The translations under genes and the position numbers were made by a program. 64,000 nucleotides of DNA from an uncultured Dehalococcoidia bacterium (lineage in GTDB: Bacteria; Chloroflexota; Dehalococcoidia; Lucifugimonadales; GCA-2712585): NCBI GenBank assembly GCA_951812825.1, contig OX638324.1:192977-256976 (forward strand), written 5' to 3'. The notes below the pieces were generated by a model. The model searched no databases. It saw nothing but the letters and a program-made list of their open reading frames with translations, and had not been told where the DNA came from. This document shows, in pieces, positions 4,182 to 52,633 of this stretch (position 1 is its first letter; the number at the start of each line of letters is the position of its first letter).

Positions 4182-4244
4182 ATATACGCTTCCTTCACCT
4201 GATACCCATCACGTATCCTTATTCTACCAGATGCCGATGAGGTT

Positions 4245-25607: not shown

Positions 25608-26996
25608 ATGGTCACTGGTAACAGTAGGACATCGCAAAAACGTATAGCCATTATAGGTGGGGGAATATCAGGTATGGCAGCGGCGTGGGGGCTGTATCAT
25701 CACCCCGACCGCTTTGATTTCCGTCTGTTTGAGGCCCAGGACAGGATTGGCGGTAATGCCGTCACAGTTGATATGCCGCAGGAAGACGGGACTGCTATTC
25801 CCTTCGACATTTCGGTAACTGCGTGCATTCCTTCGGTTTACCAACATATTGTTCTGCTAATGAAACGTTTTGGCATCAAGCTGGTGGAGACGAAATTCAG
25901 CTACAGCGTTAAGTACCGGGGCCAAGTCTACGCCCACGATTTCGATTCCGAGATCAGAGAACAGCTAAAGCCGGAGATTGAAAAATTCCAACGTCTCCTT
26001 AAGCGGCTTCACCGGTTCGGCAGGCTGAGTCGTTCGCGGTCCAAGTTCGTCAACGCTCTCAATCCCTACAACTACGTCAGCATGGGTACGGTGCTGAATT
26101 TCCACGGCTTTTCGGGAGATTTTCGTTACAAGATTCTTAAGCCCATGTTCGTTAATTTTGTGCTGGCGACGAATGTGTTCGATATGCCAGCGTCCCTCTT
26201 CTCCAGGTACCTCGAGTTCTTCGACATAGAGTCCGCCACTTCCATGCAGACTTGGGACCAGGGAACCCGGCAAATATACGAGAACTTGACTGCGGGCTTT
26301 AGGAACAAGATCTACCTAAGCAGGCCCGTCCGAAAGGTCTATCGGCAGCCATCCGGAGTTGTGGTGGAGGACGAGAACGGCGAGCAGGAAACATTCGACG
26401 AGGTGATCTTCGCGTGCAACGCCAACCAGACGCTAATGATGCTTGACAACCCGACGATGCTGGAGCGTTACCTTCTCTCGTCGATTCGGTACGAGAGCGA
26501 GCTTCACAACCACACGGTAGTACATTCGGACTCATCTGTATTACCGGACAACGAGGTCAGACCCCTTGAAACCAGGAGCAACCACATAGAACAGTATGGG
26601 TCCAGACCGGACAACTATGAAATTACCTACATCATGCATAACCAGCAGCCTTGGGCCAATGGTTCCGACAAACCGTGCCTTGTGACTTACAACCCAATCA
26701 GCAAAATCGATGAAAGAAAGGTCATCCAGAGACATTGGTTTCAACACATCGTTCATGACGTTCGGCACGTTGCATTTCTTATGCACCTGTTCAGGTTCGT
26801 TCAGGGCAAGAGACGGACTTGGTACTGCGGCGCCCATACGCTAATCAACAGCCAGGAGACCTGTTTCGTTAGCGGACTAGCCGCGGCAAGGCAGTTGGGC
26901 GCCGATTATCCTTTCGACGACCACGAAGCAAGGAGAATGTTCAACTACTACGGGAGCATTCTGTATGGTTGGGGCTTTAAAAAAGCGAGGGGTTAA
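25608..26996 (+). CDS. FAD-dependent oxidoreductase (COG2907/amine-oxidase-like)
   Basis: The 462-residue flavoprotein starts with a Rossmann motif IAIIGGGISGMAAAWGL and the RIGGNAVTV FAD-pyrophosphate segment. A central substrate domain and a C-terminal FAD contact (YCGAHTL...SGLAAARQLG) follow. It belongs to the predicted NAD/FAD-binding group near protoporphyrinogen oxidases and phytoene or squalene desaturases. Members often sit beside lipid methyltransferases. The next gene, a P450 fusion, is co-directional 207 bp on, with its own likely promoter. Oxidation or isomerisation of a lipid or isoprenoid is a reasonable guess. No clear ribosome-binding site precedes the ATG. Confidence 0.85.
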   Translation: MVTGNSRTSQKRIAIIGGGISGMAAAWGLYHHPDRFDFRLFEAQDRIGGNAVTVDMPQEDGTAIPFDISVTACIPSVYQHIVLLMKRFGIKLVETKFSYSVKYRGQVYAHDFDSEIREQLKPEIEKFQRLLKRLHRFGRLSRSRSKFVNALNPYNYVSMGTVLNFHGFSGDFRYKILKPMFVNFVLATNVFDMPASLFSRYLEFFDIESATSMQTWDQGTRQIYENLTAGFRNKIYLSRPVRKVYRQPSGVVVEDENGEQETFDEVIFACNANQTLMMLDNPTMLERYLLSSIRYESELHNHTVVHSDSSVLPDNEVRPLETRSNHIEQYGSRPDNYEITYIMHNQQPWANGSDKPCLVTYNPISKIDERKVIQRHWFQHIVHDVRHVAFLMHLFRFVQGKRRTWYCGAHTLINSQETCFVSGLAAARQLGADYPFDDHEARRMFNYYGSILYGWGFKKARG

Positions 26997-27111
26997 ACAG
27001 AGTTCGAAAGCCTGAGTTGTCACAGATCTCACAGGCCCCAGATTTTAAGACTTCAGGAGTTGTCGGCTTCACTTGAGGCCATGTCCTGTGGGGTCATTTT
27101 GGAACACTGAT

Positions 27112-27141
27112 TTGCCTACGCGTAGCCACAAGAAGTATACT
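27112..27141 (+). promoter_or_regulatory. Probable sigma70-type promoter for the P450 gene
   Basis: TTGCCT and TATACT with an 18-bp spacer give a start about 55 bases before ATG 27204. The -35 matches four and the -10 five of six consensus bases. Confidence 0.5.
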
Positions 27142-27203
27142 GGGTATCTTATCTGGTAAGAGTGGTTGAGGTTAGTGCGTGGATTTGACGCAAGGAGACC
27201 TTC

Positions 27204-29231
27204 ATGATTACAGCCACACAGGAAACTACCCTTCACACGCTGACTTTGCCCGAGGAACTCATTCTGATGCTCCTCAACGAGGAGAACGGTTATTTCCACC
27301 AGGTTCCTGGCTGGGATTTAAACTGTGCCATCGTCGGGGCTGTCCTTGGTGAACTCTCCCTTCTATCTCGCATAGACACCGACCTTGAGTCCCTCTTTCT
27401 AGTTGATCCTACGGAAACCGGCGACCCCACACTAGACCCCATATTGAAGGAGATCGCGGAGGAACCTAACAAGCGCGATACCCTCTATTGGATTGAACGG
27501 CTTGCTCCCCACGCCGAGTCCATCATTGACCTGACGCTTGACCGGCTGGTGGAGATGAAGATTCTGGAGCAGCACGCGGGAGAATTCTGGACTCTTGCTC
27601 GCAATGCGCGCATGGGCAAGTTTGCCGGCGGTTTCTCCGAGGGCACCTTGGTAGAGTTCGTCAAAACGCGGATTACCAAGGAGATCTTCGACGACGAGAT
27701 CCCTGATCCGCGGGACGCCATGCTCATTAGCCTGGTTGATGCATGCGACGTCTTTCGCTTCATGTTCCAGCTGAATGAGGAGACGGAAAGGCGAATCCAG
27801 TTTATTCGCCAGACGGCCTTGCTTGGTCGTACCATCGCCGCAGCCGTCGCCGAAAATATCGCAAGTCCGTTGCTCAGGCGGTCGGCGTTAACCAAGAAGA
27901 TTCCGAACGTCTCCCTCCGCAAGCTGCTGTTCAACAAGCACGTGCGCAGCGGGAACATTCCGGCCATCTTCGCTGATCTCGCCAAAGAGTACGGTCCGGT
28001 ATTTGCGATAAAGCCTCCGCTGGCCAAGCCCATGATCTTCCTTGCGGGGCCTGAAACAAATCATTGGGTGCACCGCCGGGGGCGTATGTACCTGAGGGCC
28101 AAGGACTATTTTGCAGACTTCGAAAAGGTCTACGGCGCCAACGGCGTTCTTCCGTCCCTGGACGGAGCAGACCATTTTCGACTTCGCAAGTCTCTGGCGG
28201 CAGCCTATTCTCGCGGCAGGCTTTCGGGGCAGTTGGATGAGGTATATGGAAGTGTCAGGGAATTCCTTGCTTCATGGAAAGTCGGAGAGAAGCACCAGGC
28301 GACATACATGTGCCGACGGATGATAAATGCACAGCTCTCTCCCCTGTTCATCGGGGTTGATTCCCAAGACATCATCGACGACCTTGTCAAGTACAAAGAG
28401 CGGGCGCTGATGGTCCATATTATGAAGATACTGCCCAAGTTTATGTTGAAGACGCCGAGTATGAGGCGGCGTGCGAAGATAGTCGACACGTTGCTTCATC
28501 GGATTCAGAACGTGCACACCCCCGCCCAGAGAGCGGGGAAGCCGAGGAGCCTGGCGGACGACCTGTTGAGCCTCCACGCAAGCGATCCCCAGTTCGTTCC
28601 GGAATCCAATCTGCGTTTCGCGCTATCGGCAGCCCTGATTGCAAGCGTTTACCTTGGGGACGCGTTCAGCTTTGCGTTGTACGCAATGGTATCGCAGCCG
28701 GAACTCTACGAGAAGATCCAGCAGGAGGCCGACGCTCTGTTCGACAAAGGCGATCCCGAGGGCAGGGACTTTAACCTGGAAGCCATCGACGTGACACACC
28801 GCTTCCTCATCGAGTGCCTGCGTATGTACCCGATTGTGCCAATGTCCATCCGAAACGTGATGAATACGTGCGTAGTCGAAGGCTACGAACTACCCGTGGG
28901 CACACGCGTCTTCATAGCGCAGACGGCTTCCCATTTCCTGGAAGAATCCTTCCCGGAGCCTTTCAAGTTTGACATCGATCGTTACAAGGAGCCGCGCAAC
29001 GAGCATCACGGTCCGGGATACGCTCCATACGGACTGGGAACCCACACCTGTCTCGGATCTCGCTGGATGGACCTCCAGTTGACTGTCAACTTGCTGATGG
29101 TGGCCCATTACTTCAACCTCAAGATTTCGCCGTCCAACTACAAGCTGAAGTTCAACGCGCTGCCTTCAATGAAACCCAGCAAGAAGCTGAATTTCCTCGT
29201 AGCCGAACAGAGGCGTGAGATAAACGTCTAA
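27204..29231 (+). CDS. GPP34 (GOLPH3-like) domain fused to cytochrome P450
   Basis: The 675-residue protein has two parts. Residues ~10-220 match GPP34: LTLPEELILMLLNEENGYF, an AIVGAVLGELSLLSRID helix, LFLVDPTETGDPTLD, then LVEMKIL. Residues ~245-670 are a P450 with ECLR (Glu537, Arg540) and the heme loop GLGTHTCLG (Cys616). The I-helix (ALIASVYLGDAFSFALY) lacks the usual acid-Thr pair for oxygen activation. Eukaryotic GOLPH3 binds phosphatidylinositol-4-phosphate at membranes; bacterial GPP34 proteins are often encoded near P450s, but a covalent fusion is unusual. The GPP34 part may place the P450 at a membrane or its lipid substrate. AAGGAG precedes the ATG. Confidence 0.88.
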   Translation: MITATQETTLHTLTLPEELILMLLNEENGYFHQVPGWDLNCAIVGAVLGELSLLSRIDTDLESLFLVDPTETGDPTLDPILKEIAEEPNKRDTLYWIERLAPHAESIIDLTLDRLVEMKILEQHAGEFWTLARNARMGKFAGGFSEGTLVEFVKTRITKEIFDDEIPDPRDAMLISLVDACDVFRFMFQLNEETERRIQFIRQTALLGRTIAAAVAENIASPLLRRSALTKKIPNVSLRKLLFNKHVRSGNIPAIFADLAKEYGPVFAIKPPLAKPMIFLAGPETNHWVHRRGRMYLRAKDYFADFEKVYGANGVLPSLDGADHFRLRKSLAAAYSRGRLSGQLDEVYGSVREFLASWKVGEKHQATYMCRRMINAQLSPLFIGVDSQDIIDDLVKYKERALMVHIMKILPKFMLKTPSMRRRAKIVDTLLHRIQNVHTPAQRAGKPRSLADDLLSLHASDPQFVPESNLRFALSAALIASVYLGDAFSFALYAMVSQPELYEKIQQEADALFDKGDPEGRDFNLEAIDVTHRFLIECLRMYPIVPMSIRNVMNTCVVEGYELPVGTRVFIAQTASHFLEESFPEPFKFDIDRYKEPRNEHHGPGYAPYGLGTHTCLGSRWMDLQLTVNLLMVAHYFNLKISPSNYKLKFNALPSMKPSKKLNFLVAEQRREINV

Positions 29232-29270
29232 TGCGGCATGCGGCGTTCGGAAGGTTGAGAAGAAGACGGG

Positions 29271-30320
29271 CTAGAGGGGCTTGCGGGCCAGGAAACAGTA
29301 CAATGGCGTGAAGATCCCGGCTTTGCCGCCTGCTACGTAGGCATTGGCGGCTTGATTCAGGAGGCGCATGACTTCCGCGGATCCCTTGGGGAATATCCTT
29401 AATGCCTCGGCCAGCCCTGCGGCCCGCACGGCCAGCTTGCGTCCCAGGGGAATCCTGTATAGCGCGTTGCCCGGAATTCCATGTCCGGAATCCATTGGTT
29501 GATACCAGGGCGTACTTGGACCCTTCTCCTGAACGGCCCGGTCCTTCCCTTCGATAACCTGAAATCCCGCTGATTCCAGGGTTTGGTTCACCTCTCCCGT
29601 TGTCGCGATGCCTTTGAGAGCTATTCCGCGCATCAGGTCCTGTTTGACGGCCCTGTGCAGTTTATCGTCGGGGTTGAACCTGTCCGTCATGCACATTTCC
29701 TGGCCCCAGAGTAGGGATCCCGGCTTCAGGACTCGATAGATTTCGGCGAAGGCGCCCGCCTTGTCCGGAGCATGGCACGTGGATTCAATTGCGTAGCCCC
29801 TGTCGAAGGTGTTGTCCGCTATGGCCGTCATGTTCATGAAGCTGCACTCCAGGTAGTCAACCATGTGGTCGATACCCGCCTCTGAGTTCAGTGATCTTGC
29901 CTTATTCAGCTGGAATGCGTTGATATTGACCCCGAGAACATTGACCCCGGCCTCCCGGACGACACGGCGCATTGGCCCGCCGACCCCGCAACCCACATCG
30001 ATAACCTTCATTCCCTCTCGCAACTGCAACTTGGATATCATCAGTCGCTGATGCCGAATTTTGGAGTCCTCCAGGCTTTCGTGGGGAGCCAGTGGCGCGA
30101 AGTGGAGAGAGTCCCCCCATGAGAACACCATGAGCTCGCTGCAAAGGTCGTAGTATTCCAAGACGGTCTTGGCATGGTCGTAGCCTGCCGGGCCGTCATT
30201 CGTCGCAGACGCCCAATTTGTCCAGCTATCGAATTCTCTTGCGCGGTGTTGGGTGTCCGATCCGCGGTTCTCGGCTTTCAGCTGCCTGAAGAGTTTGTAG
30301 AAGTCCAGGAGAGTTTTCAA
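29271..30320 (-). CDS. Sterol C24-methyltransferase-like SAM methyltransferase
   Basis: The 349 residues follow the ERG6/SMT layout. Region I is YYDLCSELMVFSWGDSLHFA (56-75). The SAM motif is VIDVGCGVGGPMRR (~106-119). Region III is YAIESTCHAPD (174-184), nearly the eukaryotic SMT signature. IYRVLKPG follows, and a C-terminal domain ends KAGIFTPLYCFLARKP as in SMTs. Known SMTs methylate C24 of the sterol side chain; homologues occur in some uncultured bacteria. The residues match sterol enzymes better than tocopherol or cyclopropane-lipid methyltransferases, but a different polycyclic substrate is possible. It lies 26 bp downstream of the RND permease gene, probably co-transcribed. Confidence 0.85.
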   Translation of the reverse strand: MKTLLDFYKLFRQLKAENRGSDTQHRAREFDSWTNWASATNDGPAGYDHAKTVLEYYDLCSELMVFSWGDSLHFAPLAPHESLEDSKIRHQRLMISKLQLREGMKVIDVGCGVGGPMRRVVREAGVNVLGVNINAFQLNKARSLNSEAGIDHMVDYLECSFMNMTAIADNTFDRGYAIESTCHAPDKAGAFAEIYRVLKPGSLLWGQEMCMTDRFNPDDKLHRAVKQDLMRGIALKGIATTGEVNQTLESAGFQVIEGKDRAVQEKGPSTPWYQPMDSGHGIPGNALYRIPLGRKLAVRAAGLAEALRIFPKGSAEVMRLLNQAANAYVAGGKAGIFTPLYCFLARKPL

Positions 30321-30346
30321 AGGCGTGTTGTCTCCAAAGAATCCTA

Positions 30347-32809
30347 TTATTGTTCGTGGCGCCGATGTACGGCTTCAATTGCCTCGTCCAGCTCCTCGGA
30401 CCAACGCTGCACCACAGACCGGAGCCGCATGTTCTGGTAGGCGCCCCATACCGTCATCATCGGTGGCACCATGATGATGGATACGATGAGTGAGTATGCG
30501 ATGGTGATGCCGGCGGTGATGCCGAATTGCTGAGACGCGGCCAGAGGCGAGAACACGAGAGCGCCAAGGCCTAGTCCCGTTGTCAGCGCGGAACCAAGGA
30601 GGGCCGAGCCGGTGGTGGAAAGGGTGCGAATAGCCGCTCTTTCCGGGTCGCGAGCAGCGGAATACTCCTCCCGGTAGCGGTGAATCATGTGGATGGTGTA
30701 GTCAACGCCAATACCTATAGAGAGGGCCGTGATGATTGATGTGATGATTGTATAGGGGATGCCCAACAGGGCCATGGTGCCCAGCACTGCGATTAGCACC
30801 AATACGATGGGACCGACAGCTATTATTGCCAGCGCGGGTTGCCGCACCGTTATCCAGAAAAATACGGCGAGAACGGTGAGGGCCGCCAGGATGGTGGAGG
30901 TTATTGCCTCCGTCTGACGTTCCGTGATGGAATCGGTCACGGTTACGGAGATGATGCTCTCGGACGTGGCGGTGATGGTGTCGTCTTCGCCGAACCAGAG
31001 GCCTTCAATCTCCTGCTGTAGCACTTTTGTGAAGGAGGGATCGCTGTTGATGGCGCGGAACTGGAGCAGCATGGCGTCGCGGCCGTTTGGGTCGTTAACG
31101 AGGATGCGGCTGAGGGAGGGATCTCTCGCCTCCAGCTTATCCAGGATTTCTTGCATGAGCGCCGGATCTAATTGGACGCCGGCGGAGGCGTCACGGAAGA
31201 GGGCAGCCAGTTCCGGGTCGTATTTGTCGCCGGGTTCCCCGCTATCGGAAACCCAGTCGCGCAGGGTGAGTTCGTAGGATGCAATGATGGGGCCACCTGC
31301 GGCTTTCGGCCGTCGGGCCTCGTCCGCAAAACCGGACTCCAGGTCCTGCAGGTTGAGGAGGGTGCGGGACTCGGTTGCTTCTCCCTTTACAAGGATGGTG
31401 GCCATCTCGGTTGAACCACCAACGGCGGCCTCCAGCGTGTTCAGGTCATTCATCAGGGTGCCTCCCCGGGGCAGGATGTCCCGAATGTCGAATTCCGATT
31501 CCAGGTTGGTGGCGGCAAAGCCGAGTCCTAAGGTAACTATAACCACTCCGATGATGTAAGGGGCAGGTTTGTGAGTGACGCTGCGTCCCAGCCACGCTGC
31601 TATGCGGCTGACTCCGGGCAGCGCGTTGGCTATGGGACGGGGTGGGGTCAGTCTGCCGCGGGCCTCCCGCCGGCGGTCAATGATGGTCCGGCCGGCCGGC
31701 ATCAGCGTGAGCATGACGATGAGGCTCATGCCAACTCCAAGTCCGGCAATAATGCCGAAATCGCCAACGATCCCAATGGGGGAGAAAAGGTTGGCCGTAA
31801 AGCTGATGATTGTCGTAACGGCAGCCAGGACCAGGGGTATGGTCACGTTTGACAGGCCAGCTCTGGCGGCGCTTAATACGCCCTCACCGGCGGTGCGCTG
31901 TTCACGGTAGTGGGACACTATCTGGATGGCGTAGTCCACCGTCAGTCCGATGACGATTATAGGCACCATGATAGTGAGGGAGTTGGGTGGGCCGGTGAAG
32001 CCCAGACCATTCGGCCCGAGCCAGCCCTCCGCGCCGACAATCCAGATGATGGACATGAGGAGGCCGCCAAGCGTCAAAAAGAGGTCTGAGAAGGTGCGCA
32101 TAAATAGAAGGATCAGAGCCGCAATTAGCAGGAAGGCAAGTCCAATGAGGGGCGCCATTCCCTCCTCGGTGGCCTTGACGTACTCATCCTCGATGACTAT
32201 GGGAGATACGCTGCTGACGTCGAGGGGTCCCTCGTCGGCGACTGCCAAATCTTGAATCAGCCGCTCTGCGACCTGTATTCGTTCGTCGCCGGTGTCTTGT
32301 AGACGTAAGATTGCGATTGACACCGGGGTTCCGTCAGTATCGGTTCCGGTCACAGAGCTAAGGACGGCCTGAATTTCCGGGATGCTGCGAACGGAATCGA
32401 TTTCTGCCTGGGTAACAGACTGGAAGGAGTCCACGTGAAGCAGGGACTTAATGATGAACGAGGGAGCGAAGACGGGATCTTCCTGCTCCAGCAAGGACCC
32501 AACGCTTGGATTGCTGACTATTGAAGAGGCGAGTCTGTCCATCTGCTCAAGACCCTGCGGGGTGAGGGACTCGCCTCGGAATACCAACGTCACTACATTG
32601 GCCTCACCCGAATCTTCAAAAAGCTCATCGATTTCCACCAGGACATCAGCGACGCGACTGTTCTCAGGAAGGGTTGCCGCCGTTTCCGGAGGTGGGGCTC
32701 TCCGTGTGGTACCCGCGCCCAGCACAATGGTAATGAGGACTAGGACGATGATGGTGATGTATGGGCGCCCCGTGATTATTGGGCCCAACCTGCCGGGCAT
32801 ATTGTTCAT
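30347..32809 (-). CDS. RND/MMPL-family membrane transporter
   Basis: The 820-residue protein has two repeats, each with one helix, a large periplasmic loop, and a bundle of five helices. The TM4 proton-relay-like motifs are GLTVDYAIQIVSHYRE and GIGVDYTIHMIHRYREEY. The length and lack of an outer-membrane partner fit the MMPL/HpnN/Patched-like group, which moves lipids, hopanoids or sterols rather than drugs. In Methylococcus an RND protein (BstA) is implicated in sterol transport. The methyltransferase gene follows after 26 bp, so this could move the methylated product. No membrane-fusion protein gene is nearby. Confidence 0.9.
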   Translation of the reverse strand: MNNMPGRLGPIITGRPYITIIVLVLITIVLGAGTTRRAPPPETAATLPENSRVADVLVEIDELFEDSGEANVVTLVFRGESLTPQGLEQMDRLASSIVSNPSVGSLLEQEDPVFAPSFIIKSLLHVDSFQSVTQAEIDSVRSIPEIQAVLSSVTGTDTDGTPVSIAILRLQDTGDERIQVAERLIQDLAVADEGPLDVSSVSPIVIEDEYVKATEEGMAPLIGLAFLLIAALILLFMRTFSDLFLTLGGLLMSIIWIVGAEGWLGPNGLGFTGPPNSLTIMVPIIVIGLTVDYAIQIVSHYREQRTAGEGVLSAARAGLSNVTIPLVLAAVTTIISFTANLFSPIGIVGDFGIIAGLGVGMSLIVMLTLMPAGRTIIDRRREARGRLTPPRPIANALPGVSRIAAWLGRSVTHKPAPYIIGVVIVTLGLGFAATNLESEFDIRDILPRGGTLMNDLNTLEAAVGGSTEMATILVKGEATESRTLLNLQDLESGFADEARRPKAAGGPIIASYELTLRDWVSDSGEPGDKYDPELAALFRDASAGVQLDPALMQEILDKLEARDPSLSRILVNDPNGRDAMLLQFRAINSDPSFTKVLQQEIEGLWFGEDDTITATSESIISVTVTDSITERQTEAITSTILAALTVLAVFFWITVRQPALAIIAVGPIVLVLIAVLGTMALLGIPYTIITSIITALSIGIGVDYTIHMIHRYREEYSAARDPERAAIRTLSTTGSALLGSALTTGLGLGALVFSPLAASQQFGITAGITIAYSLIVSIIMVPPMMTVWGAYQNMRLRSVVQRWSEELDEAIEAVHRRHEQ

Positions 32810-33069
32810 ACTTAATCCTTCCGTCGAAACAAAACGGTGGATGCAGCCCTCCTCGCTTCTTGGCTCAGCGGATGAAGCTTATTGCGTCTAGCCTGTTGCA
32901 GCTGCCGCCTACCATAAATCCGTTCTGCAAACTTTTACCACAGGGGCTAATTCTCAGCAAGGCATATTACTGAATATACCGACATTGCAGAAAATGCTGC
33001 AGCCCGTGGGTAATATGGAGCTACCATGCCGGTCTCAGAACCGGGGCGTTGGTCCGTAGTTTTCAAAGT

Positions 33070-34146
33070 TCAGTGGATAGAGCCGCTGTGAGCAACAGGC
33101 AGAGGGTGAACAGCCTTGTTTGGATTTGGGTAGAATTGGGCGCAGTAGGCTCTGAAGGGCATGATCTCACCGTCAGAGCGAGATAGACGAGGGCGGGACA
33201 CGTACCGCTTGCGGCTCCAGATTATGACATCTTGGAGTACGTCCCTTAGCTGCACGGCCGAGATGAACTTGTTGATGATGGGAGCTCGCAGTCCTACCGA
33301 AAGAAATCTCAGGCCGGAGATTATCTTCTTCGGATTGCGAATTTCCCGTACTTGTGACACCAGCGTCATGTCAATGAGCGTTCCGTCTACGGGCGTTGCG
33401 AGCACCCAGAGGCGCAAATCCATGCCAATGGAATGTTCACGGATCTCCACGAAGGAGTATCCCAGTCCACAAACAAGGGTTTTTGCGGAGATGTTCAACG
33501 TTAAGGTTGGAAACTTGGCGAAAGTAAGGGTTCTGGTAAAATCGAAACGGCTATCCAGATATGGACCCGTTACCGTTGCCTTGCCGACGCGCTTAACGTT
33601 ATCGTAGCCATGAACATATCGCAGGTGGGCCAAGTCTACGGAGTTTTCAGATGTTTCCTGGGGGTGGCCGGGAAATCGGACTGTCCTGATACTGTAGCTG
33701 CACCAACCGGCTTGGTCAGGGTCTTCTGCGGGCAGGCGCCATTGGGGTTTCCGGCCCTCGATCCCCCACCACGCGAATATGAGGCCGTTAATCTCCCGGG
33801 TCTCGAATGCTTTCAGCTTGGCGGTCTTGGGAGGATCTGCATAGGGTGTGGCGACGCATTGGCCTGTGGCATCGTATTCGAATCCATGGAAGGGACAGAC
33901 CAGCCGCCCAGCGCACACGCGTCCACCCGCGGCTGGGCCTAACTGGGAACCCAGGTGAGGACAGTAGGCATCGGCCACGCATACTTGGCCGTTCTCGTCA
34001 CACCAGACGATGATGTTTTCCCCCATCCAGGTCTTCTGGATGAGCTTAACTTTCAGTATTTCCTTGCGGCTTGCGACGAAGTACCAACCCTCGGGAAAAG
34101 GGGAAAGCGATTGGGCATACGCGAGTTTCGCACGTTGAGTTGGCAT
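33070..34146 (-). CDS. Rieske non-heme iron oxygenase (DAF-36/KshA-like)
   Basis: The 358-residue enzyme has a full Rieske centre (Cys62/His64, Cys84/His87) and a mononuclear iron site (Asp171, His174, His179, Asp306, in SENSVDLAHLRYVHG and LRDVLQDVIIWSRK). The C-terminal RAYCAQFYP ends like the QFY motif of 3-ketosteroid 9-alpha-hydroxylase and the cholesterol 7-desaturase DAF-36/Neverland. These relatives act on steroids. It lies upstream of the RND permease and methyltransferase genes on the same strand (260-bp gap). A polycyclic lipid substrate is therefore plausible. The reductase partner is not encoded here. GGGAG precedes the ATG. Confidence 0.88.
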   Translation of the reverse strand: MPTQRAKLAYAQSLSPFPEGWYFVASRKEILKVKLIQKTWMGENIIVWCDENGQVCVADAYCPHLGSQLGPAAGGRVCAGRLVCPFHGFEYDATGQCVATPYADPPKTAKLKAFETREINGLIFAWWGIEGRKPQWRLPAEDPDQAGWCSYSIRTVRFPGHPQETSENSVDLAHLRYVHGYDNVKRVGKATVTGPYLDSRFDFTRTLTFAKFPTLTLNISAKTLVCGLGYSFVEIREHSIGMDLRLWVLATPVDGTLIDMTLVSQVREIRNPKKIISGLRFLSVGLRAPIINKFISAVQLRDVLQDVIIWSRKRYVSRPRLSRSDGEIMPFRAYCAQFYPNPNKAVHPLPVAHSGSIH

Positions 34147-38065: not shown

Positions 38066-38093
38066 TTGACAAAATAGCCGCATCTGATACACT
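38066..38093 (+). promoter_or_regulatory. Sigma70-type promoter with extended -10 for the cox operon
   Basis: A consensus TTGACA (38066-38071), a 16-bp spacer, and TACACT with an upstream TG at -15/-14 (38085-38093) predict a start about 55 bases before the coxS GTG. Confidence 0.55.
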
Positions 38094-38154
38094 TCGACTC
38101 AATGGTGGCGCCGGGCACGGACGCCCGGATAGGCAGTTTACAGGCAGGTGCAAT

Positions 38155-38628
38155 GTGAAAGTTCCTGTTGAGATTACTATCAATGGAAAGAGCTATAGCG
38201 GCGAGGTAGAAGCGCGGCAGCTTCTGGTCCACTTCATCAGGGAGGAAGTCGGGTTGACGGGAACGAAGGTGGGCTGCGATACAAGCCAGTGCGGTTCCTG
38301 TACGGTGAAGCTGGACGGCGCGGCGACGAAGGCCTGCACCGTGCTGACGGTCCAGGCTTCCGGATCCGAGGTAACAACCATCGAAGGGCTGGCGGACGGT
38401 TCGGACCTACACCCGCTGCAGGAGGCGTTCTGGAACAAGCACGGCCTGCAGTGCGGCTTCTGCACCCCGGGGATGATAATCGCGGCGGACGAGCTCCTTC
38501 GGAAAAACCCATCGCCAAGCCGGTCTGAGATCCGGCACGGCCTGGAAGGCAACATCTGTCGCTGCACCGGCTACCAGAACATCGTGCTTGCCGTCGAAGA
38601 TGCTGCTCGCTCAATGGGAGGCGCTTAG
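38155..38628 (+). CDS. coxS: Cox/xanthine dehydrogenase-type small subunit (2 x [2Fe-2S])
   Basis: The 157-residue iron-sulfur subunit has the plant-ferredoxin cluster motif [12 protein letters not shown] near residue 40, then the second cluster CGFCTPGM and [10 protein letters not shown] near residues 102-141. GTG 38155 gives the usual family length; an upstream frame would add a tail unlike any relative. It passes electrons from the molybdenum subunit to the FAD subunit. The coxL gene follows after three bases. Confidence 0.93.
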
Positions 38629-38631
38629 GCT

Positions 38632-40986
38632 ATGACTACACGCATATTTGGCTCCGGCATCCGACGTAGAGAGGACCCCAGGCTCATCACGGGTCGGGCT
38701 TCCTACACAGACGACATCAAGCTTCCAGGCATGGTCCACGCGGCTATTCTTCGCAGCCCCTACGCCCACGCGACCATAACATCCATAGATACAAGTGAGG
38801 CGGCCGGGCAGCCGGGAGTCATCGCCGTCTATACGGGCGAAGACACCGACGGGGTGCTGAACGGACTTCCCTGCGCCTGGCTGATTCCCAACTCGGACCT
38901 GAAGACGCCTGACCATCCCGCCATCGCCAAGGACAAGGTGCGATACGTGGGCGACGCAGTCGCGGTGGTCGTGGCGGAGAGCCGCTACCAGGCGGAAGAC
39001 GCCCTGGAGTTCATCTCCGTAGAATACGAGCCGCACGACGCTGTGTTGAATCCCAAGGAGGCCACCCAGGACGGCGCACCGCAGCTGCACGACGACGTGC
39101 CCAACAACGTGGCGTTTACCTGGGCCGTGGCGGGAGGCGACGCTGAGGCGGCGTTTGCCGATGCCGACGTTACCGTCAGCGACACCATTACGCTGCAGCG
39201 GCTGATTGCGAACCCCATGGAACCCCGCTCGGCCATAGCCCAGTGGGTGAGCCAGACGGGTGATCTGACCCTGTGGAGTACATCGCAGAATCCCCACATC
39301 GCCCGTTTCCTTACCTCCGTAGTCACCGGCGTGGGGGAGCACAAGATTCGGGTGATCGCGCCCGAGGTTGGGGGCGGATTCGGCAGCAAGATTCCTTTTT
39401 ACGCAGACGAAGCCATTGCCGCCTTCTGTTCCATGCAGCTGGGCGTGCCAGTGAAGTGGACTGAGACCCGCAGCGAGAACTATCTGATTACGACCCAGGG
39501 CCGCGACCACATCGAAGAAGTTGAAATGGCGGCCACATCCGACGGGAAGATAACCGGCCTGCGCACGACGGTGTATGCGGGACTGGGAGCCTATCTCTCG
39601 ACGGCCAGCCCCGGCGTTCCGACGATTCTGCACGGGCTGATGTACTCGGGGTCCTACGACATCCCGAACATCTCCGGCACGGTCTACGGCGTGTTCAACA
39701 ACGGCACGCCGGTGGACGCCTATCGTGGGGCGGGACGTCCTGAGGCTACGATGCTCATCGAGCGGCTGGTGGACCTGATGGCCGCCAAGCTGGGCATGGA
39801 CGCCGTGGAGTTTCGTCGGATGAACCTGATCCCGAAATTCGAAAACGGCCACGACGTTGCCACCGGCCTCACCTACGACAGCGGCGACTATCACGCAACC
39901 CTGGACATCTGCCTGAACGCGGCGGACTACTCCGCCCTTCGCGAAAAGCAGGCGAAGCTGCGAGAGCAGGGTCGGTATATGGGGATTGGAGTTTCCACCT
40001 ACGTTGAAATCTGCGGCCTCGGTCCTTCCCAGGTTGCGGGCGCCGTAGGGTTCCAGGGAGGCCTCTGGGAGAGCGCCATCGTGCGTTTCCACCCCACGGG
40101 CAAGGTCAACGTTATGGTTGGCTCTTCCCCCCACGGTCAGGGCGAGGAGACCACGTTTGCCCAGATTGTTGCTCATGAAGTAGGCGTAGACGTGGACGAC
40201 GTGGAGATCATCCACGGGGACACGGACCTGACGCCGATGGGCTGGGGCACCTATGGCAGCCGCACAACGGCGGTTTCCGGCGCGGCGGTGACGCTGGCGA
40301 CCCGCAAGATCAAGGAAAAGTCCAAAGCCCTCGCCGCGCACCTGCTGGAGGCAGCCGCCGAGGACATCGAGTACGAGGATGGCAAGTTCTTCGTCCGCGG
40401 GTCCCCCGATCAGGCGAAGACTATTCAGGACATCGCCCTCATGGCCAATGTGGCCTGGGATATGCCGGAAGGCATGGAGCCTGGTCTGGAGGCAAGCGCC
40501 TTCTACGACCCGCCCAACTTCACCTACCCCTTTGGAGCGCACCTTGCCGTCGTGGAAGTAGATCCGGCCACCGGCGAGATTGACCTGCAGAAATACTACG
40601 CCGTGGATGACTGTGGTCCGCAGATCAACCCCATGATCGTGGAAGGGCAGGTGCACGGCGGCGTGGTGCAGGGGGTTGGCCCGGCCCTGTGGGAAGGCGT
40701 CGTGTATGACGACGACGGACAGCTTCTGACGGGTACGATGCTCGACTACGCGCTGCCCCGCGCCGACGGCTTCCCCGACATCCACGTGCAGTCCAACGTG
40801 ACGCCCTCCCCTCACCATCCGCTGGGCTTGAAGGGTGTGGGCGAAGCGGGGACTATCGCATCCACTCCCACGGTCTATAACGCAGTGATGGATGCCCTAC
40901 GCCCCTTGGGCGTCACCCGCATAGACATGCCGTTTACACCTGAAAAGGTGTGGCGGGCGATAAATTCCGCGCAGAACGGAGCATAG
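38632..40986 (+). CDS. coxL: Cox-type molybdenum hydroxylase large subunit, form II
   Basis: The 784-residue subunit binds the molybdopterin cofactor. The motif AYRGAGR (363-369) is that of form II, not the AYRCSFR of true aerobic CO dehydrogenase. The active-site Glu738 lies in GEAG near the C-terminus. GGGFGSK and QGGLWE-type cofactor contacts are present. Form II enzymes may oxidise CO poorly or act on aldehydes or N-heterocycles, so a CO role is uncertain. The order S-L-M-D-E with coxG supports a Cox-like maturation machinery. The gap to coxM is two bases. Confidence 0.93.
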   Translation: MTTRIFGSGIRRREDPRLITGRASYTDDIKLPGMVHAAILRSPYAHATITSIDTSEAAGQPGVIAVYTGEDTDGVLNGLPCAWLIPNSDLKTPDHPAIAKDKVRYVGDAVAVVVAESRYQAEDALEFISVEYEPHDAVLNPKEATQDGAPQLHDDVPNNVAFTWAVAGGDAEAAFADADVTVSDTITLQRLIANPMEPRSAIAQWVSQTGDLTLWSTSQNPHIARFLTSVVTGVGEHKIRVIAPEVGGGFGSKIPFYADEAIAAFCSMQLGVPVKWTETRSENYLITTQGRDHIEEVEMAATSDGKITGLRTTVYAGLGAYLSTASPGVPTILHGLMYSGSYDIPNISGTVYGVFNNGTPVDAYRGAGRPEATMLIERLVDLMAAKLGMDAVEFRRMNLIPKFENGHDVATGLTYDSGDYHATLDICLNAADYSALREKQAKLREQGRYMGIGVSTYVEICGLGPSQVAGAVGFQGGLWESAIVRFHPTGKVNVMVGSSPHGQGEETTFAQIVAHEVGVDVDDVEIIHGDTDLTPMGWGTYGSRTTAVSGAAVTLATRKIKEKSKALAAHLLEAAAEDIEYEDGKFFVRGSPDQAKTIQDIALMANVAWDMPEGMEPGLEASAFYDPPNFTYPFGAHLAVVEVDPATGEIDLQKYYAVDDCGPQINPMIVEGQVHGGVVQGVGPALWEGVVYDDDGQLLTGTMLDYALPRADGFPDIHVQSNVTPSPHHPLGLKGVGEAGTIASTPTVYNAVMDALRPLGVTRIDMPFTPEKVWRAINSAQNGA

Positions 40987-40988
40987 CC

Positions 40989-41855
40989 GTGTTTCCAGCA
41001 CAGACAGAATATCATCGTCCCAACTCAGTGACCGAGGCCGTGGACCTGCTTGCCAGCAACGAAGGGGCCAAGGTTCTCGCGGGTGGCCACAGCCTCATCC
41101 CCCTGATGAAGCTCAGGCTGGTCGCGCCTACCGTTCTGGTGGACATCGGCCGCATCGAAGCCTTGAAGGGAATCGAGGCGACGGACGGTGGGCTGTCCAT
41201 CGGCGCGTTGACGACCCAGGCGACCATTGCGGCCAGCGATCTCGTCAACGAACGGGCGCCCCTGCTGGCGGAAGCCGCGGGCATGGTGGGCGACCCCGCG
41301 GTGCGAAACCGAGGCACCATCGGCGGTAACATTTCCCACAGCGACCCGGCCTCCGACCTGCCGGCGGTGCTCACAGCCCTGGGCGCAACGCTGAAAGTCA
41401 CAGGCAAGGGGGGCGACCGGAGCGTAGGCGCGTCGGATTTCGCCACGGGTTTGCTGGAGAATATCCTTGGGGAGGACGAGATTCTGACCAGCGTGTCGGT
41501 GTCGTCAATCCCCTCCGGGGCGGGTTCCGCTTATGTAAAGTTTGCCCATCCCGCGTCGCGGTACGCCGTTATCGGAGTCGCAGCCATCGTCGGCGTGTCC
41601 GACGGCAGATGCTCGTCCGCGAGTGTGGTAGTGGGAGGCGTGGAGACGACGCCCACCCGAGCATCGTCCGTGGAGTCGGCGTTGCTGGGCTCGGACCTGA
41701 GCGACGAAGCCCTAGACAAAGCCGCTGCGGCAGTGGCGGGGGACTTCCAGGGCGACGCCATGAGCGACATCTTCGCGTCCGCCGAATATCGTCAAGCAGT
41801 GGCCGCAGTCTACGTACGACGCGCCCTGGCGGCGGCAGTTTCGCGGGCCGGCTAG
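40989..41855 (+). CDS. coxM: Cox-type FAD-binding medium subunit
   Basis: The 288-residue protein has both FAD motifs, AGGHSLIPLMKLRL near residue 30 and TIGGNISHSDPASDLPA near residue 110, and the C-terminal CO_deh_flav_C domain. GTG 40989 follows the coxL stop by two bases, so it is translationally coupled; the longer frame overlapping coxL is less likely. It passes electrons from the iron-sulfur subunit to the respiratory chain. Confidence 0.93.
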   Translation: MFPAQTEYHRPNSVTEAVDLLASNEGAKVLAGGHSLIPLMKLRLVAPTVLVDIGRIEALKGIEATDGGLSIGALTTQATIAASDLVNERAPLLAEAAGMVGDPAVRNRGTIGGNISHSDPASDLPAVLTALGATLKVTGKGGDRSVGASDFATGLLENILGEDEILTSVSVSSIPSGAGSAYVKFAHPASRYAVIGVAAIVGVSDGRCSSASVVVGGVETTPTRASSVESALLGSDLSDEALDKAAAAVAGDFQGDAMSDIFASAEYRQAVAAVYVRRALAAAVSRAG

Positions 41856-41954
41856 GTCCCCGAGCGTCTCATACGGCTGGAAGGTCGAGCCTGGGTCCCA
41901 TCTCCTTATCATTTCCAAAGGCTCCTATGGGCCAGAAGGACAAGGTAGTTGAAC

Positions 41955-42876
<922 letters not shown>

Positions 42877-42884
<8 letters not shown>

Positions 42885-44181
42885 CGGCGACTCTGGGCAT
42901 TTCCTGAACAATCTTCTCCTGTTCGGCCGCCTGCTAAGGCGTCTGGGGCTGGACGTTCACACGGGACGAATGCTGGACGCCATCCGTGTGCTGGAGGACA
43001 TCGGAATTCGCCGCCGCATGGAGGTGCGGTCGGCGCTGCGAACGCTTATGGTGCATCGACGGGAGGACCTGCCCGTATTCGACGAGGCTTTCGGAGTGTT
43101 CTGGCGTCAGAGGAAGGACCGGCTGTCTTCGCTGGACCTGCGTTCAATGGGTGAGCAGCGTAGGTATCGACGAATTGAGGCGGGGCCGCCTCCGCCGAAC
43201 GGCGCCGAAAGGGGTCAGCCGGAGGACGGATCTGCCGCTGATCGCATCGACCTGTCCAGGACCTTCAGCGCCAGGGAGGTGCTGCAGAAGAAGGACTTTA
43301 CGGAGTTCACTTCTCAAGAGGCCCGCCAGGCGAAGCTGATGCTGGCTTCGTTGCAGTGGGACCCCGGCGTGAGGCGCACCAGGCGCAAGGAGCCGGGCAG
43401 GGGAGGGGAGTTGGACGTTCGGAGGACTTTGCAGCGCAACGTCAAGTTTGGCGGAGAGTTGCTGGAGTTGAGGCGCCGACGCCGGAAGGAGAAGCCCCGC
43501 AGGCTGTTGGTAATCTGCGACGTTAGCGGCTCCATGGAGAGCTACACCCGCATGCTGCTTCACTTCATCCACAGCCTCTACGCCGGGCTGGAAAGCAGGG
43601 TGGAGGCTTTCCTGTTCGCCACTCGTCTGACGCGGGTTACGAAGCAGCTTGCCCAGAGGAACATCGACCAGGCGGTGGATTCTGTTGCCAAGGCCGTCCC
43701 GGACTGGTCGGGTGGGACTCGCATCGGGGCCGCGCTGAAGGAGTTCAACTTCAGATGGGCGCGGAGGACTCTCAGTTGGGGTTCCATCGTCCTGATTGTC
43801 TCCGACGGCTGGGACAGGGGAGAACCGGAAATGTTGAGCGCCGAAATACAGCGGCTTCAGCGCAGTTGTCGACGGCTGATTTGGCTGAATCCGCTGGCGG
43901 GCCGTGAGGGGTACGAGGCGTCGACCCGGGGGATGCAGGCGGCGGAGCCGTTCATCGACGACCTACTGCCGGTGCACAACATGGCGGCGTTGATAGATCT
44001 GGCGCACCATCTCAACGACCTGTCGGACAGCTGGCCGGTCAGGAGACAGATGCCGCCGCGGGGGGTGGAACGGGAGGAGGCGTTGGCAGAGACAGCGCCG
44101 CAGCAACAGCGGTCGTGGTACGGGGGCGCCAATCCAACCTTCCGGCATCCACTGTGGGGACGGGGCCAGCAGCAGAACTAG
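42877..44181 (+). CDS. coxE: VWA-domain protein, CoxE-like
   Basis: The ~434-residue protein has an N-terminal helical region and a C-terminal von Willebrand A fold with a MIDAS motif DVSGSMESY, a conserved Thr in WSGGTRIGAAL and SDGWDRGE. CoxE proteins act with the CoxD ATPase as a MoxR-VWA chaperone pair. GTG 42877 is preferred because GGGAG lies five bases upstream; an upstream GTG at 42865 is also in frame. It overlaps coxD by eight bases. Confidence 0.9.
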
Positions 44182-45453: not shown

Positions 45454-46224
45454 CTACCACAGCGGCGCCTCGAACAGGCCGCAGATGGCCGGGACCAGGA
45501 AGGCTACCAGGAGAAGAACGGCAACCCCCGCAACCTCGTTGACTGCGCCGTAGGTATCCCCCGTCATGCCGCCGATCAGTCGGGAGACCCACCAACCCAA
45601 GGCCATCGCTGCCGCAACGGAAACGGCAAGCAAGACGAGTCCTCCAACGCCCATGAGGAGGCCTGCGGCGACCGCGGCGATGACGAAACCCACGGCCAAT
45701 TGCCACCGGCTGCGGCCAATCTCGAAGGAGGTACCCAGCCCCTGTTCGCGGGAGTATCTGAATGCGACCATGGTTGCGAGCATACCAAACCTCGACAGGC
45801 ACGGAAACAGCGCAAGCAATTCGATGCGTACGCCGGAGGGGGCGTAGGCGAGCAATGTCCACTTGAGCAGCAACAGGCTCACGCCGCCCACGACGGCGAA
45901 CGCGCCCACTCGGGAGTCCCGCAGTATTTGAAGCCTGTGCTCCCTGTTCCCGCCTCCCAGCAGCCCGTCGCAGCTGTCCAGGAATCCCTCGACGTGGATT
46001 GCCCGGGTTGCTACGAGCAGCGTTGCCAGCAGAATTGCGCCCACCACGGGCAGGGGCAGCACTTCCCGTGCCGCAACATCAAGCCCGGCCAGCATGCCGC
46101 CGAGGGCCAGTCCGACAAGGGGAAAGTAGGCGCTGGCCGACCCGGTTGGGGTCTTGCCAGCCGGCGCGACGGGAAAAATGGTCAGGAATCCGAAGGCGTG
46201 GCGGATGTCCGTTAAGAGTCGCAC
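45454..46224 (-). CDS. cobS: Adenosylcobinamide-GDP ribazoletransferase (cobalamin synthase)
   Basis: The 256-residue membrane enzyme has several hydrophobic helices and the CobS motifs HVEGFLDSCDGLLGG (near residue 77) and GGMTGDTYGAVNE (C-terminal). It joins Ado-GDP-cobinamide to alpha-ribazole. The HVEGF has Glu where most relatives carry Asp, a mild change. GTG 46224 overlaps cobT by 13 bases. Confidence 0.92.
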   Translation of the reverse strand: MRLLTDIRHAFGFLTIFPVAPAGKTPTGSASAYFPLVGLALGGMLAGLDVAAREVLPLPVVGAILLATLLVATRAIHVEGFLDSCDGLLGGGNREHRLQILRDSRVGAFAVVGGVSLLLLKWTLLAYAPSGVRIELLALFPCLSRFGMLATMVAFRYSREQGLGTSFEIGRSRWQLAVGFVIAAVAAGLLMGVGGLVLLAVSVAAAMALGWWVSRLIGGMTGDTYGAVNEVAGVAVLLLVAFLVPAICGLFEAPLW

Positions 46225-47291
46225 GGTGAGTCTGGTTCTGGAGGGCGGTTGGAGACGCTGGCTTCTTCGAAGGTGGCCATGTCGCTGAGGCAGGCTGCGG
46301 CGGCTTCGATGATCGGCATGGCCAACGCAGCCCCGGTACCTTCTCCAAGCCTCATATCCAGGTCCAGGAGCGGCCTTAATCCGAGGTGGGACAACACAAC
46401 ACGATGCCCCGACTCTGCGGATTGATGAGCGGCAATCATGTAGTCCGACGCTGTTGGACAGAGCGTGTGGGCTATGAGCGCCGCCGCCCCGGAGATGAAG
46501 CCGTCCAGCACCACAGGCCGACGAGCAAAGGCGCCGCCAAGCATCACGCCAGCAAGGACGCCGATTTCATAGCCTCCAACCTTGGCCAAGACGTCCAGTC
46601 CGTCGGTTGGATCGGGATTGTTGACGGCCAGAGCCCGTTGGACGACGGCTATCTTCCTATTGAGTTCGTCATCCGTACGCCCAGTGCCGCGGCCTGTGGT
46701 CTCACGGAGTGGCTGTCCGGTGATTGCGGAGGTGATGGCGCTTGATGGTGTGGTGTTTCCTATGCCCATGTCGCCGGTGCCGAGGACGTGGGCGCCTGAC
46801 TCAGCCGCTTCGATGGCCAATTGGACCCCTGCCATGACTGTCGTCTCAGCATTGTTGCGGCTCATGGCGGGCCACCGGCTGATGTCTCTGGTGGGGCGTC
46901 CCTTGCCGATGACCCGCAGGTTGGGATGGGGTGGCAGCGGAGAGCCAACGCCCGCGTCTACAATGACCAGATCCACGCCCGTTGTTTGAGCAATTACGTT
47001 GATGGCCGCGCCACCAGCCAGGAAGTTCAGCACCATCTGAGACGTGACTTCTTGTGGGTAGCCAGTCACGTTCTGGGCCGTGACTCCGTGGTCGCCGGCG
47101 GCAACTATGACGGTTTTTCGCCTAACTGAGGGACGTTCCGTGACGAAGATTCCCGCCAGCCGGATTGATAGCTCTTCCAGACGTCCAAGACTGCCGGGAG
47201 GCTTGGTTAGCTGGTCCTGACGTTCAGCGGCTTGCCGCATGATGTCGGCGTCAATCGGCTTGATGTCGGCAATTACCTCATCCAGGATCAT
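46212..47291 (-). CDS. cobT: Nicotinate-nucleotide:DMB phosphoribosyltransferase
   Basis: The 359-residue enzyme has TKPPGSLGRLEELS, AAGDHGVTAQNVTGYP, GTGDMGIGNTTPSSA and the catalytic Glu in RLGEGTGAALAMP near the end. It activates the lower-ligand base to alpha-ribazole-P. No bluB is seen, so the base is made elsewhere or taken up. It starts two bases after the cobO stop. Confidence 0.96.
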   Translation of the reverse strand: MILDEVIADIKPIDADIMRQAAERQDQLTKPPGSLGRLEELSIRLAGIFVTERPSVRRKTVIVAAGDHGVTAQNVTGYPQEVTSQMVLNFLAGGAAINVIAQTTGVDLVIVDAGVGSPLPPHPNLRVIGKGRPTRDISRWPAMSRNNAETTVMAGVQLAIEAAESGAHVLGTGDMGIGNTTPSSAITSAITGQPLRETTGRGTGRTDDELNRKIAVVQRALAVNNPDPTDGLDVLAKVGGYEIGVLAGVMLGGAFARRPVVLDGFISGAAALIAHTLCPTASDYMIAAHQSAESGHRVVLSHLGLRPLLDLDMRLGEGTGAALAMPIIEAAAACLSDMATFEEASVSNRPPEPDSPCDS

Positions 47292-47293
47292 CG

Positions 47294-47869
47294 TCAGAAC
47301 TCAATCCCTTGTTGTGCCCGGATGCCCTTCTCCTCGTATGGATGTTTGATGAGTTTCATCTCCGTTACGAGGTCGGCGCAGTCGATTAGTTCTTGGGGCG
47401 CGTACCGGCCCGTGATGATGACGTGCAGGTCATCGGGCCGACGCTGGAGAGTATCGACCGCATCGACAACGGGGACCCAGCCGTAGTGTAAGGCGTAAGT
47501 GAACTCGTCTAAGACGATAATGTCTTCCTTGCCTTCCAATATGGCGTCCTTGCACCTGTGCCACTGTTCCACCGCAAGAGCCTCTGTCCTGTCCATGTCC
47601 TTGGATAGCCAGGTAAAACCGTCCCCCAGGGATTCGATGGGAATGTTCAGCTTTTGAGCGGCCCGCTGTTCGCCGAACCGCGCACCGGTGTGTTTGATGA
47701 ACTGGAACATTCTGATTTGAAAGTCCCTTCCCCAGGCGCGAAAAATTACGCCCAGGGCCGCTGTAGTTTTGCCCTTGCCCTCGCCGGTGTTTACTATGAC
47801 TAGCCCGTGCCGCACCCTTGGCCTTCTAGGAATAGGGCGTGATGAACCGCCGTTTTTCGTCTGTGTCAT
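47294..47869 (-). CDS. cobO: Corrinoid adenosyltransferase (CobA/CobO type)
   Basis: The 191-residue enzyme has the P-loop VNTGEGKGKTTAALG, the FQFIKHTGARFGEQ region and VLDEFTYALHYGW. It adenosylates cob(I)alamin or cobinamide. The ATG overlaps the btuD stop (ATGA), and cobT follows two bases after its end. Confidence 0.96.
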   Translation of the reverse strand: MTQTKNGGSSRPIPRRPRVRHGLVIVNTGEGKGKTTAALGVIFRAWGRDFQIRMFQFIKHTGARFGEQRAAQKLNIPIESLGDGFTWLSKDMDRTEALAVEQWHRCKDAILEGKEDIIVLDEFTYALHYGWVPVVDAVDTLQRRPDDLHVIITGRYAPQELIDCADLVTEMKLIKHPYEEKGIRAQQGIEF

Positions 47870-48711
47870 TTCGCACTATTTCTTCCAATTGAGATGTTTC
47901 GTAACGGCGCAACTCCGTTTGCAGGCCCTATGAGACTCACGGTCATGGAGCCGGTTACGGGGTCCCGATAAACCGCAGCCTTCACCTTGAAAACCGTTTC
48001 TATCAGCTCTGGATTAAGTACGTCCTCGGCCGGCCCGGTGGCAATGACTTCCCCTCCGGACATCACCACCAGTCTGTCGCAGTAACGCGCAGCTATTGAG
48101 AGGTCATGGAATGCGGCGACTGCCGTCAATCCCGCGTCCACCAACTGCCGGACCAGGTCCAACACCATGAGCTGGTGCAGCACGTCTAGGTTGGACGTTG
48201 GCTCATCAAGGAGGAGAATGCGGGGCTGCTGTGCAAGAGCGCGGGCAACAAAAACCCGCTGTCTCTCGCCACCAGAAAGAGTATCCAGGGTCCTGTTGGC
48301 GAACTGGTCCGTCTCAGTCATTGCCATGGCGTCTCGGGCGATTTGCTCATCAGAATTGCTCTCCACCTGAAAGCGGCCCAGATGAGGGTAGCGGCCCATC
48401 AGGACCAGCTCCATGGAAGTGAATCCGTGGGTGTATGGCGCAATCTGGGGAACCAGGGCCAGGCCGGCTGCCACGTCCTTGACCGTCATGTTTGCTAGAT
48501 CCTTTCCTTCAAGAGTCACAGCGCCGTCTTGACAGCGTAGGATGCCGGATATGGCGCGTAAGAGCGTCGACTTTCCGGCGCCGTTGGGGCCTATCAGTCC
48601 GACCATCTCGCCTTTGTCAACGCTGAGGTTCACACCATCTAGTAGCCATTGAGCCTCGACCTGATAGGCCAGGTCTTGAGCCGAAACTGCCTGGTTTTTT
48701 TGATTGTTCAC
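47866..48711 (-). CDS. btuD: Cobalamin ABC transporter ATP-binding protein
   Basis: The 281-residue ATPase has Walker A GPNGAGKSTLL, signature LSGGERQRVFVARAL, Walker B ILLLDEPTSNLD and the switch His in FHDLS. It is of the FecE/BtuD iron-cobalamin class. GTG 48711 is chosen because GGAG, inside the btuF stop region, lies nearby upstream; the longer frame lies within btuF. It is coupled to cobO by ATGA. Confidence 0.93.
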   Translation of the reverse strand: MNNQKNQAVSAQDLAYQVEAQWLLDGVNLSVDKGEMVGLIGPNGAGKSTLLRAISGILRCQDGAVTLEGKDLANMTVKDVAAGLALVPQIAPYTHGFTSMELVLMGRYPHLGRFQVESNSDEQIARDAMAMTETDQFANRTLDTLSGGERQRVFVARALAQQPRILLLDEPTSNLDVLHQLMVLDLVRQLVDAGLTAVAAFHDLSIAARYCDRLVVMSGGEVIATGPAEDVLNPELIETVFKVKAAVYRDPVTGSMTVSLIGPANGVAPLRNISIGRNSAK

Positions 48712-48718
48712 GTTGCAA

Positions 48719-50023: not shown

Positions 50024-50048
50024 GGAGACTCCTTTCAGACGCTTTGTC

Positions 50049-51128: not shown

Positions 51129-51159
51129 AAACACCTCCGGCTTCTCTCCGCCGGAGGCT
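51127..51159 (-). terminator. Riboswitch attenuator hairpin covering the btuC ribosome-binding site
   Basis: On the minus strand a GC-rich stem (GCCTCCGGC with GCCGGAGG, eight pairs plus a G-U) with an 8-base loop is followed by GTTTTTG. This is an intrinsic terminator. Its 3' arm contains the GGAGG and the T-run touches the TTG start of btuC, so folding would stop both transcription and translation. Confidence 0.88.
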
Positions 51160-51230
51160 TTAGTGTCGCTCTTGTCGGGCCTATCCCCGAAACTTGAGGG
51201 ACCCTCTCTTATGCGGAGAGTGGTCACCTT

Positions 51231-52620: not shown

Positions 52621-52633
52621 GCCGGAGGTGAAT

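Follow-up and report, generated by a model that had tools for sequence, protein, structure and literature searches.

The question raised by this locus is whether five adjacent genes of an uncultured Dehalococcoidia bacterium act together on sterols or related lipids, as the original prediction had proposed from the DNA alone. They occupy positions 25608-34146 of the window, by which we mean the whole stretch of 64,000 nucleotides analysed (positions 192977-256976 of a genome assembled as one contig of 2.47 Mb, with 95.7% completeness), and all five ORFs were present where they had been predicted. A flavoprotein gene and a GPP34-P450 fusion gene lie on the plus strand, and the minus strand carries, in order, a Rieske oxygenase, a permease and a methyltransferase gene separated by gaps of 260 and 26 bp. 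We suggest that the locus is a horizontally shared module for sterol tailoring and transport, here acting on sterols from outside, and hold this reading to be likely. The common sterol/lipid theme is supported by the evidence below; the sterol substrate, the reaction sequence and the way in which transport runs are inferred. Promoter and terminator scans at the locus gave no more than would be expected by chance and were left out of the argument.

Pfam backed the family assignments proposed for all five products, with the reservation that the COG2907 label itself was not subjected to a profile test. The first plus-strand gene (25608-26996) encodes a COG2907-type FAD oxidoreductase of 462 aa (Amino_oxidase, 73 bits), whose nearest solved chains are LkcE and 2b9w (a putative aminooxidase). 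Both are presumably FAD enzymes that move hydride, and 2b9w is one that we take to be a fatty-acid double-bond isomerase; by hydride transfer the COG2907-type protein could thus carry out a dehydrogenation or a double-bond isomerisation. The second gene (27204-29231, plus strand) encodes a single chain of 675 aa in which a GPP34 (GOLPH3-like) domain (aa 15-216, 27246-27851; PF05719, 97.8 bits) precedes a p450 domain (aa 249-661; 128 bits). The GPP34 domain is a possible membrane adaptor and in sequence resembles solved GOLPH3/Vps74 only marginally. The P450 fold is backed by AlphaFold and Foldseek, and the P450 signature is satisfied, as the haem-ligand Cys616 (29049-29051), its motif and the ExxR motif are kept in 57/57 homologues. 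The I-helix (28641-28661) reads A-S-V-Y-L-G-D where 7f3h has AGHETT: the usual acid-alcohol (E/D-T) pair for O2 activation is absent, this part of the signature is not met, and Tyr483 is found there in all 57 homologues. A literature search for GPP34-P450 fusions, with subscription journals and preprints outside its scope, found nothing describing this set of genes.

The methyltransferase gene (29271-30320, minus strand, TTG start codon, 349 aa) meets the domain criterion for SMT/ERG6, with Sterol_MT_C at 66 bits against a cut-off of 21.7 (PF08498, 29277-29447) in addition to Methyltransf_11. Sterol_MT_C was found in all 23 SMT relatives scanned (23/23 members of A1), the predicted YAIESTCHAP signature is present, and the AlphaFold model has a class I methyltransferase fold. 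The original prediction would have fallen had the enzyme branched with non-sterol methyltransferases; in our tree it groups with sterol methyltransferases (SMTs), away from RebM/MitM-type enzymes. We regard this placement as good but not final, because the Erg6 and Arabidopsis SMT1 reference sequences were approximate and the outgroup was partial. Region I (30093-30143, minus strand) reads CSELMVFSWGDSLHFAP in place of the canonical FYEYGWGxSFHFAP, and the module clade (FMVFGWGESLHF, compared with FYEYGWGxSFHF) is of the FMVFGWG type, failing the substrate motif [FY]YE[YF]GWG; we therefore call the enzyme SMT-like. Three substitutions are fixed: Leu stands at Erg6 positions 89, 94 and 360 in all 103 module SMTs, whereas Phe, Arg and Met stand there in all 15 canonical SMTs. 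Given the altered Region I, the enzyme may act on something other than a standard sterol, and sterol side-chain methylation by the enzyme is inferred, without an enzyme assay.

The remaining minus-strand genes encode a permease and an oxygenase. The MMPL/HAE3-type RND permease (30347-32809, 820 aa; MMPL, 151 bits) also has Sterol-sensing and Patched matches, and its nearest solved structures are MmpL4/5, HpnN and Patched. It shares with HpnN, MmpL and BstA the RND superfamily and a Patched/sterol-sensing-like segment; it does not qualify as HpnN (126 bits against a curated cut-off of 752), nor does it reach the curated cut-off of BstA. The KshA/DAF-36-type Rieske oxygenase (33070-34146, minus strand, 358 aa) matches Rieske (66 bits) and KshA_C (78 bits). 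Its four predicted [2Fe-2S] ligands, C62, H64, C84 and H87 (33886-33963), are invariant in 54/54 homologues, as is the His/His/Asp set of the mononuclear iron site (N168, D171, H174 and H179 at 33610-33645, completed by D306), so that membership of the KshA/DAF-36 group, judged by ligands and KshA_C, is met.

Elsewhere in the window, a Rieske-domain protein (580 aa) is followed by a GMC oxidoreductase (2439-5819, minus strand); the latter scores 380 bits against the MftG cut-off of 387 and stands at the level of choline dehydrogenase, not cholesterol oxidase. The window also holds a molybdenum hydroxylase (CoxL/XDH-like) operon with a CoxE-like VWA protein (38080-44181, plus strand) and genes for cobalamin synthesis and uptake (46212-51287, minus strand, and 51658-55214, plus strand), including CbiB, an aminotransferase, CobQ-type and CobT-type proteins, FecCD and a binding protein.

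The five genes stay together in relatives, as the original prediction demanded: all five occur in 33 loci spanning 7.9-10.5 kb (30 distinct, as three are the same contigs in two collections). The originally proposed check of five-gene order showed that the set is kept and the order shuffled, into eight arrangements of order and orientation. That the set has survived so many rearrangements points to a shared function. In an unbiased count at 119 SMT loci, the five commonest families were the module's own (119, 62, 57, 41 and 40 loci, the GPP34-P450 fusion being retained at 62), and the next reached 18. Among 294 genomes of the class, the P450 fusion and the SMT are each present in 32 and together in 31; the Rieske gene is present in 29, 28 of them shared with the module set; an ERG24-like reductase is present in 34, 31 of them shared with the P450 fusion; and the COG2907-type orthologue (71-85% identity) is present in 24, every one with the P450 fusion. 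Fisher values between module genes are 1e-26 or lower, which overstates independence because the genomes are related. A chance neighbourhood is ruled out by the family counts, the class-wide co-occurrence and the 33 five-gene loci, so that the gene set, its conservation and its co-occurrence are established computationally.

The module is not confined to one lineage. Carriers within the class belong to several families and 10 genera, and among named bacterial genomes a scan recovered 80 loci with 63-74% identity, in Chloroflexota, Dadabacteria, Acidimicrobiia, Nitrospirales, Nitrospinota, Gemmatimonadota and Pseudomonadota MAGs. These groups are interleaved in the SMT tree (15 changes of group where 7 groups need at least 6), which fits horizontal transfer. 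Tree congruence between module genes is only moderate (Mantel r of 0.24-0.66 between gene distances), so that parts of the module have also moved separately, and in some phyla the set around the SMT is incomplete. In other phyla, the transporter slot is occupied by non-orthologous RND families; its refilling by different families points to transport as part of what the module does. A binning artefact is an unlikely source of the cross-phylum spread, as members lie on whole-chromosome records, among them OX638332.1 (1.59 Mb) and OX638327.1 (2.35 Mb). Roughly half of the records have name prefixes matched to sponge studies (COS, RHO, IRC and APA fit sponge hosts listed in PMC8163846, and jk18x denotes Ircinia, PMC9531527), with the origin of the others unconfirmed; a sponge habitat for the window's strain is an inference. 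Two partial arrangements were also seen. One genome (G239) has a module-type Rieske gene (66%) and an ERG24-like reductase (80%) without SMT, P450 fusion or COG2907-type orthologue, possibly a remnant or minimal version of the module. At three loci (L073, L074 and L075), a third SMT-like group (~35% identity) is directly paired with a divergent Rieske gene (23-29% to the module's), possibly a parallel pathway.

The connection to sterols is a physical one. In Nitrospira contigs and in the Dehalococcoidia genus g37, the module adjoins a bacterial sterol cluster with genes for a squalene epoxidase-oxidosqualene cyclase (SE-OSC) fusion, SdmA-like and SdmB-like proteins, ERG4/ERG24, a P450 and a canonical SMT, an adjacency that is new here. 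Genes of the module and of sterol synthesis are found together on a single stretch of 14-21 kb at five Nitrospira loci (L117, L124, L125, L129 and L150) and lie within ~20 kb (G128:C10, G205:C58) or ~40 kb (G117:C38) in g37. The SE-OSC fusion combines PF08491 with SQHop_cyclase (NCBIfam osq_cycl, 737 bits); the SdmA-like (405 bits, E 3e-121) and SdmB-like (294 bits, E 2e-87) proteins both fall under cut-offs of 600. Since the Pfam squalene epoxidase profile is unspecific and matches E. coli too, we used the SE-OSC fusion protein as the query: it is present in 18 of the 294 class genomes, none of which lacks both the SMT and the P450 fusion, and is missing from 15 module carriers, the window's genome among them. 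Three SE-OSC fusion genes of genus g95 (L160, L161, L163) each contain one in-frame TGA, which may reflect assembly error or decay.

This link bears on the possibility that the substrate is another lipid altogether, such as a polyprenoid, carotenoid, quinone or fatty acid (COG2907-type and CFA-like enzymes are reminiscent of loci for branched or furan fatty acids). COG2907-type proteins accompany fatty-acid methyltransferases in other bacteria, and these neighbourhoods, together with the Pfam CMAS profile that likewise matches the SMT-like enzyme and the presumed isomerase activity of 2b9w on fatty acids, lend this possibility some weight. However, all scanned SMTs contain Sterol_MT_C and group with SMTs rather than RebM/MitM-type enzymes, and the genes to which the module is linked (SE-OSC, SdmA/B and ERG24) are sterol-specific; we consider another lipid improbable.

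The window's own genome was searched family by family. It has no PF08491 match for squalene epoxidase and no oxidosqualene cyclase, its only cyclase being a squalene-hopene cyclase (SHC) ~29% identical to OSC, and thus does not qualify as holding a cluster of steroid genes (CSG). The whole-genome check asked for originally therefore found neither enzyme, which fits the earlier suggestion that the substrate comes from other organisms. It does have a homologue of the ERG4/ERG24 sterol reductases (C1:1534616-1535755; L165:9616-10755), found in 0/14 control genomes and 63-80% identical to the reductases of most other module carriers; relatives of it adjoin the module in two Dadabacteria loci (L085 and L092), and it probably belongs to the same pathway. 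A complete-looking hopanoid cluster is also present (L039, C1:1972000-1991000), with SHC (its sequence shows the DxDD motif), HpnC, HpnD, HpnE, HpnH, HpnG-like and HpnA-like genes; apart from SHC and the SQS_PSY pair, the Hpn names rest on a reading of the sequences. Modification of the bacterium's own hopanoids, or of other squalene-derived triterpenes, would make use of this cluster and agree with the weak HpnN similarity of the permease. Against it, a hopanoid modification locus should occur only with a squalene-hopene cyclase, and five module carriers (G006, G064, G121, G132 and G261) lack the triterpene cyclase family altogether; SHC is present in many module-free genomes, including one (G264) of a carrier genus; and hopanoid genes adjoin the module in no mapped locus, whereas sterol genes do. 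The cyclase-free carriers and the module-free genomes with SHC led us to reject hopanoids as the main reading, and we regard them as a quite improbable substrate. The lack of squalene epoxidase in the window's genome and of any triterpene cyclase in the five other carriers indicates instead that a sterol substrate is probably acquired.

The Rieske enzyme aligns with KshA (4qdc) over nearly its full length (E 1.7e-27) and shares all its ligands, yet the similarity is moderate and the module gene has no conserved KstD neighbour and is paired with an SMT (the DAF-36 sequence was not compared). Steroid catabolism, in which KshA-type ring opening would serve growth on sterols, might be read from this KshA_C-type enzyme and from the general proposal of sterol oxidation for SAR202 relatives (PMC5395668), but is very improbable. 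Known degradation routes have no use for a methyltransferase or an ERG24-type reductase, the set is found together with genes of sterol synthesis, and the 119 SMT loci show no further ring-cleavage gene conserved next to the module (a neighbourhood result, without a genome-wide search for KstD or HsaC).

We thus return to sterol tailoring and transport. As a model built from family membership, the KshA/DAF-36-type oxygenase would oxidise the ring system, the FAD enzyme would dehydrogenate the substrate or shift a double bond, the membrane-adapted GPP34-P450 may perform a further, perhaps non-standard, step, the SMT-like enzyme would add a methyl group onto a double bond of the substrate, and the permease would transport either the substrate or the product between the membrane and the outside. 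Where bacteria hold both, the module would act downstream of the de novo sterol cluster; the window's bacterium most likely acquires its sterols from a sponge host or co-symbionts. Substrate, step order, transport direction and the sponge life of the strain are all inferred, with no chemistry measured, and the P450 without its usual oxygen-activating pair and the altered SMT Region I count against this reading, as do the incomplete sets of some phyla and the merely partial agreement of gene distances.

De novo sterol clusters and their horizontal transfer have been described for sponge symbionts: the CSGs of Ircinia symbionts comprise ERG24, CYP51 and LSS/ERG7, often with SMT or FDFT1 (PMC9531527), and the msb cluster of a Melophlus symbiont contains a fused SE-cyclase, ERG24, CYP, SdmA/B-like and SMT genes (PMC7074536). 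The module is similar in its sterol enzymes, its horizontal transfer and its occurrence in sponge symbionts of many phyla, and in some genomes adjoins such a cluster. Unlike them, it has no epoxidase, cyclase or CYP51 of its own and adds the KshA-type Rieske oxygenase, the GPP34-P450 fusion, the COG2907-type flavoprotein and the RND pump; the window's genome, unlike CSG genomes, carries it without any sterol synthesis. A term search of PMC9531527 did not find Rieske, RND or GPP34, and searches on sponge-symbiont sterol clusters with Rieske/P450 and on C-26 SMTs, excluding subscription journals and preprints, found no published description of the module.

Whether the unusual sterols of sponges originate from host or symbionts is a long-standing question that bears on the oldest animal chemical fossils (PMC10070321). 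The same study assayed 24 bacterial SMTs, found active C-24 SMTs in uncultured and sponge-associated bacteria, and stated C-26 SMTs to be undiscovered. Module SMTs share with those C-24 SMTs Sterol_MT_C, the SAM motif and a YAIE[AS]TCHAP-type motif, but form a separate clade (103 rows), in which tree the 24 assayed enzymes were not placed. It is conceivable, though doubtful, that the enzymes of this clade methylate sterols with a new regiochemistry, at C-26 for instance, as the undiscovered enzyme would, and that 'unconventional' sponge sterols, aplysterol among them, come from bacteria by way of the module; if true, this would matter for 26-methylstigmastane as a fossil marker of early sponges.

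Beyond what the window alone had suggested, the genome-wide view adds the hopanoid cluster, the distant sterol reductase, the multi-phylum spread and the link to de novo sterol clusters. Two of its enzyme subfamilies are atypical, the SMT with its altered Region I and the GPP34-fused P450 that lacks the usual I-helix pair, and the module as a whole is a concrete, expressible gene set. The presence of the module in several phyla, even where no sterol can be made, predicts that bacteria remodel acquired sterols, and the module may show how symbionts remodel those of sponges.
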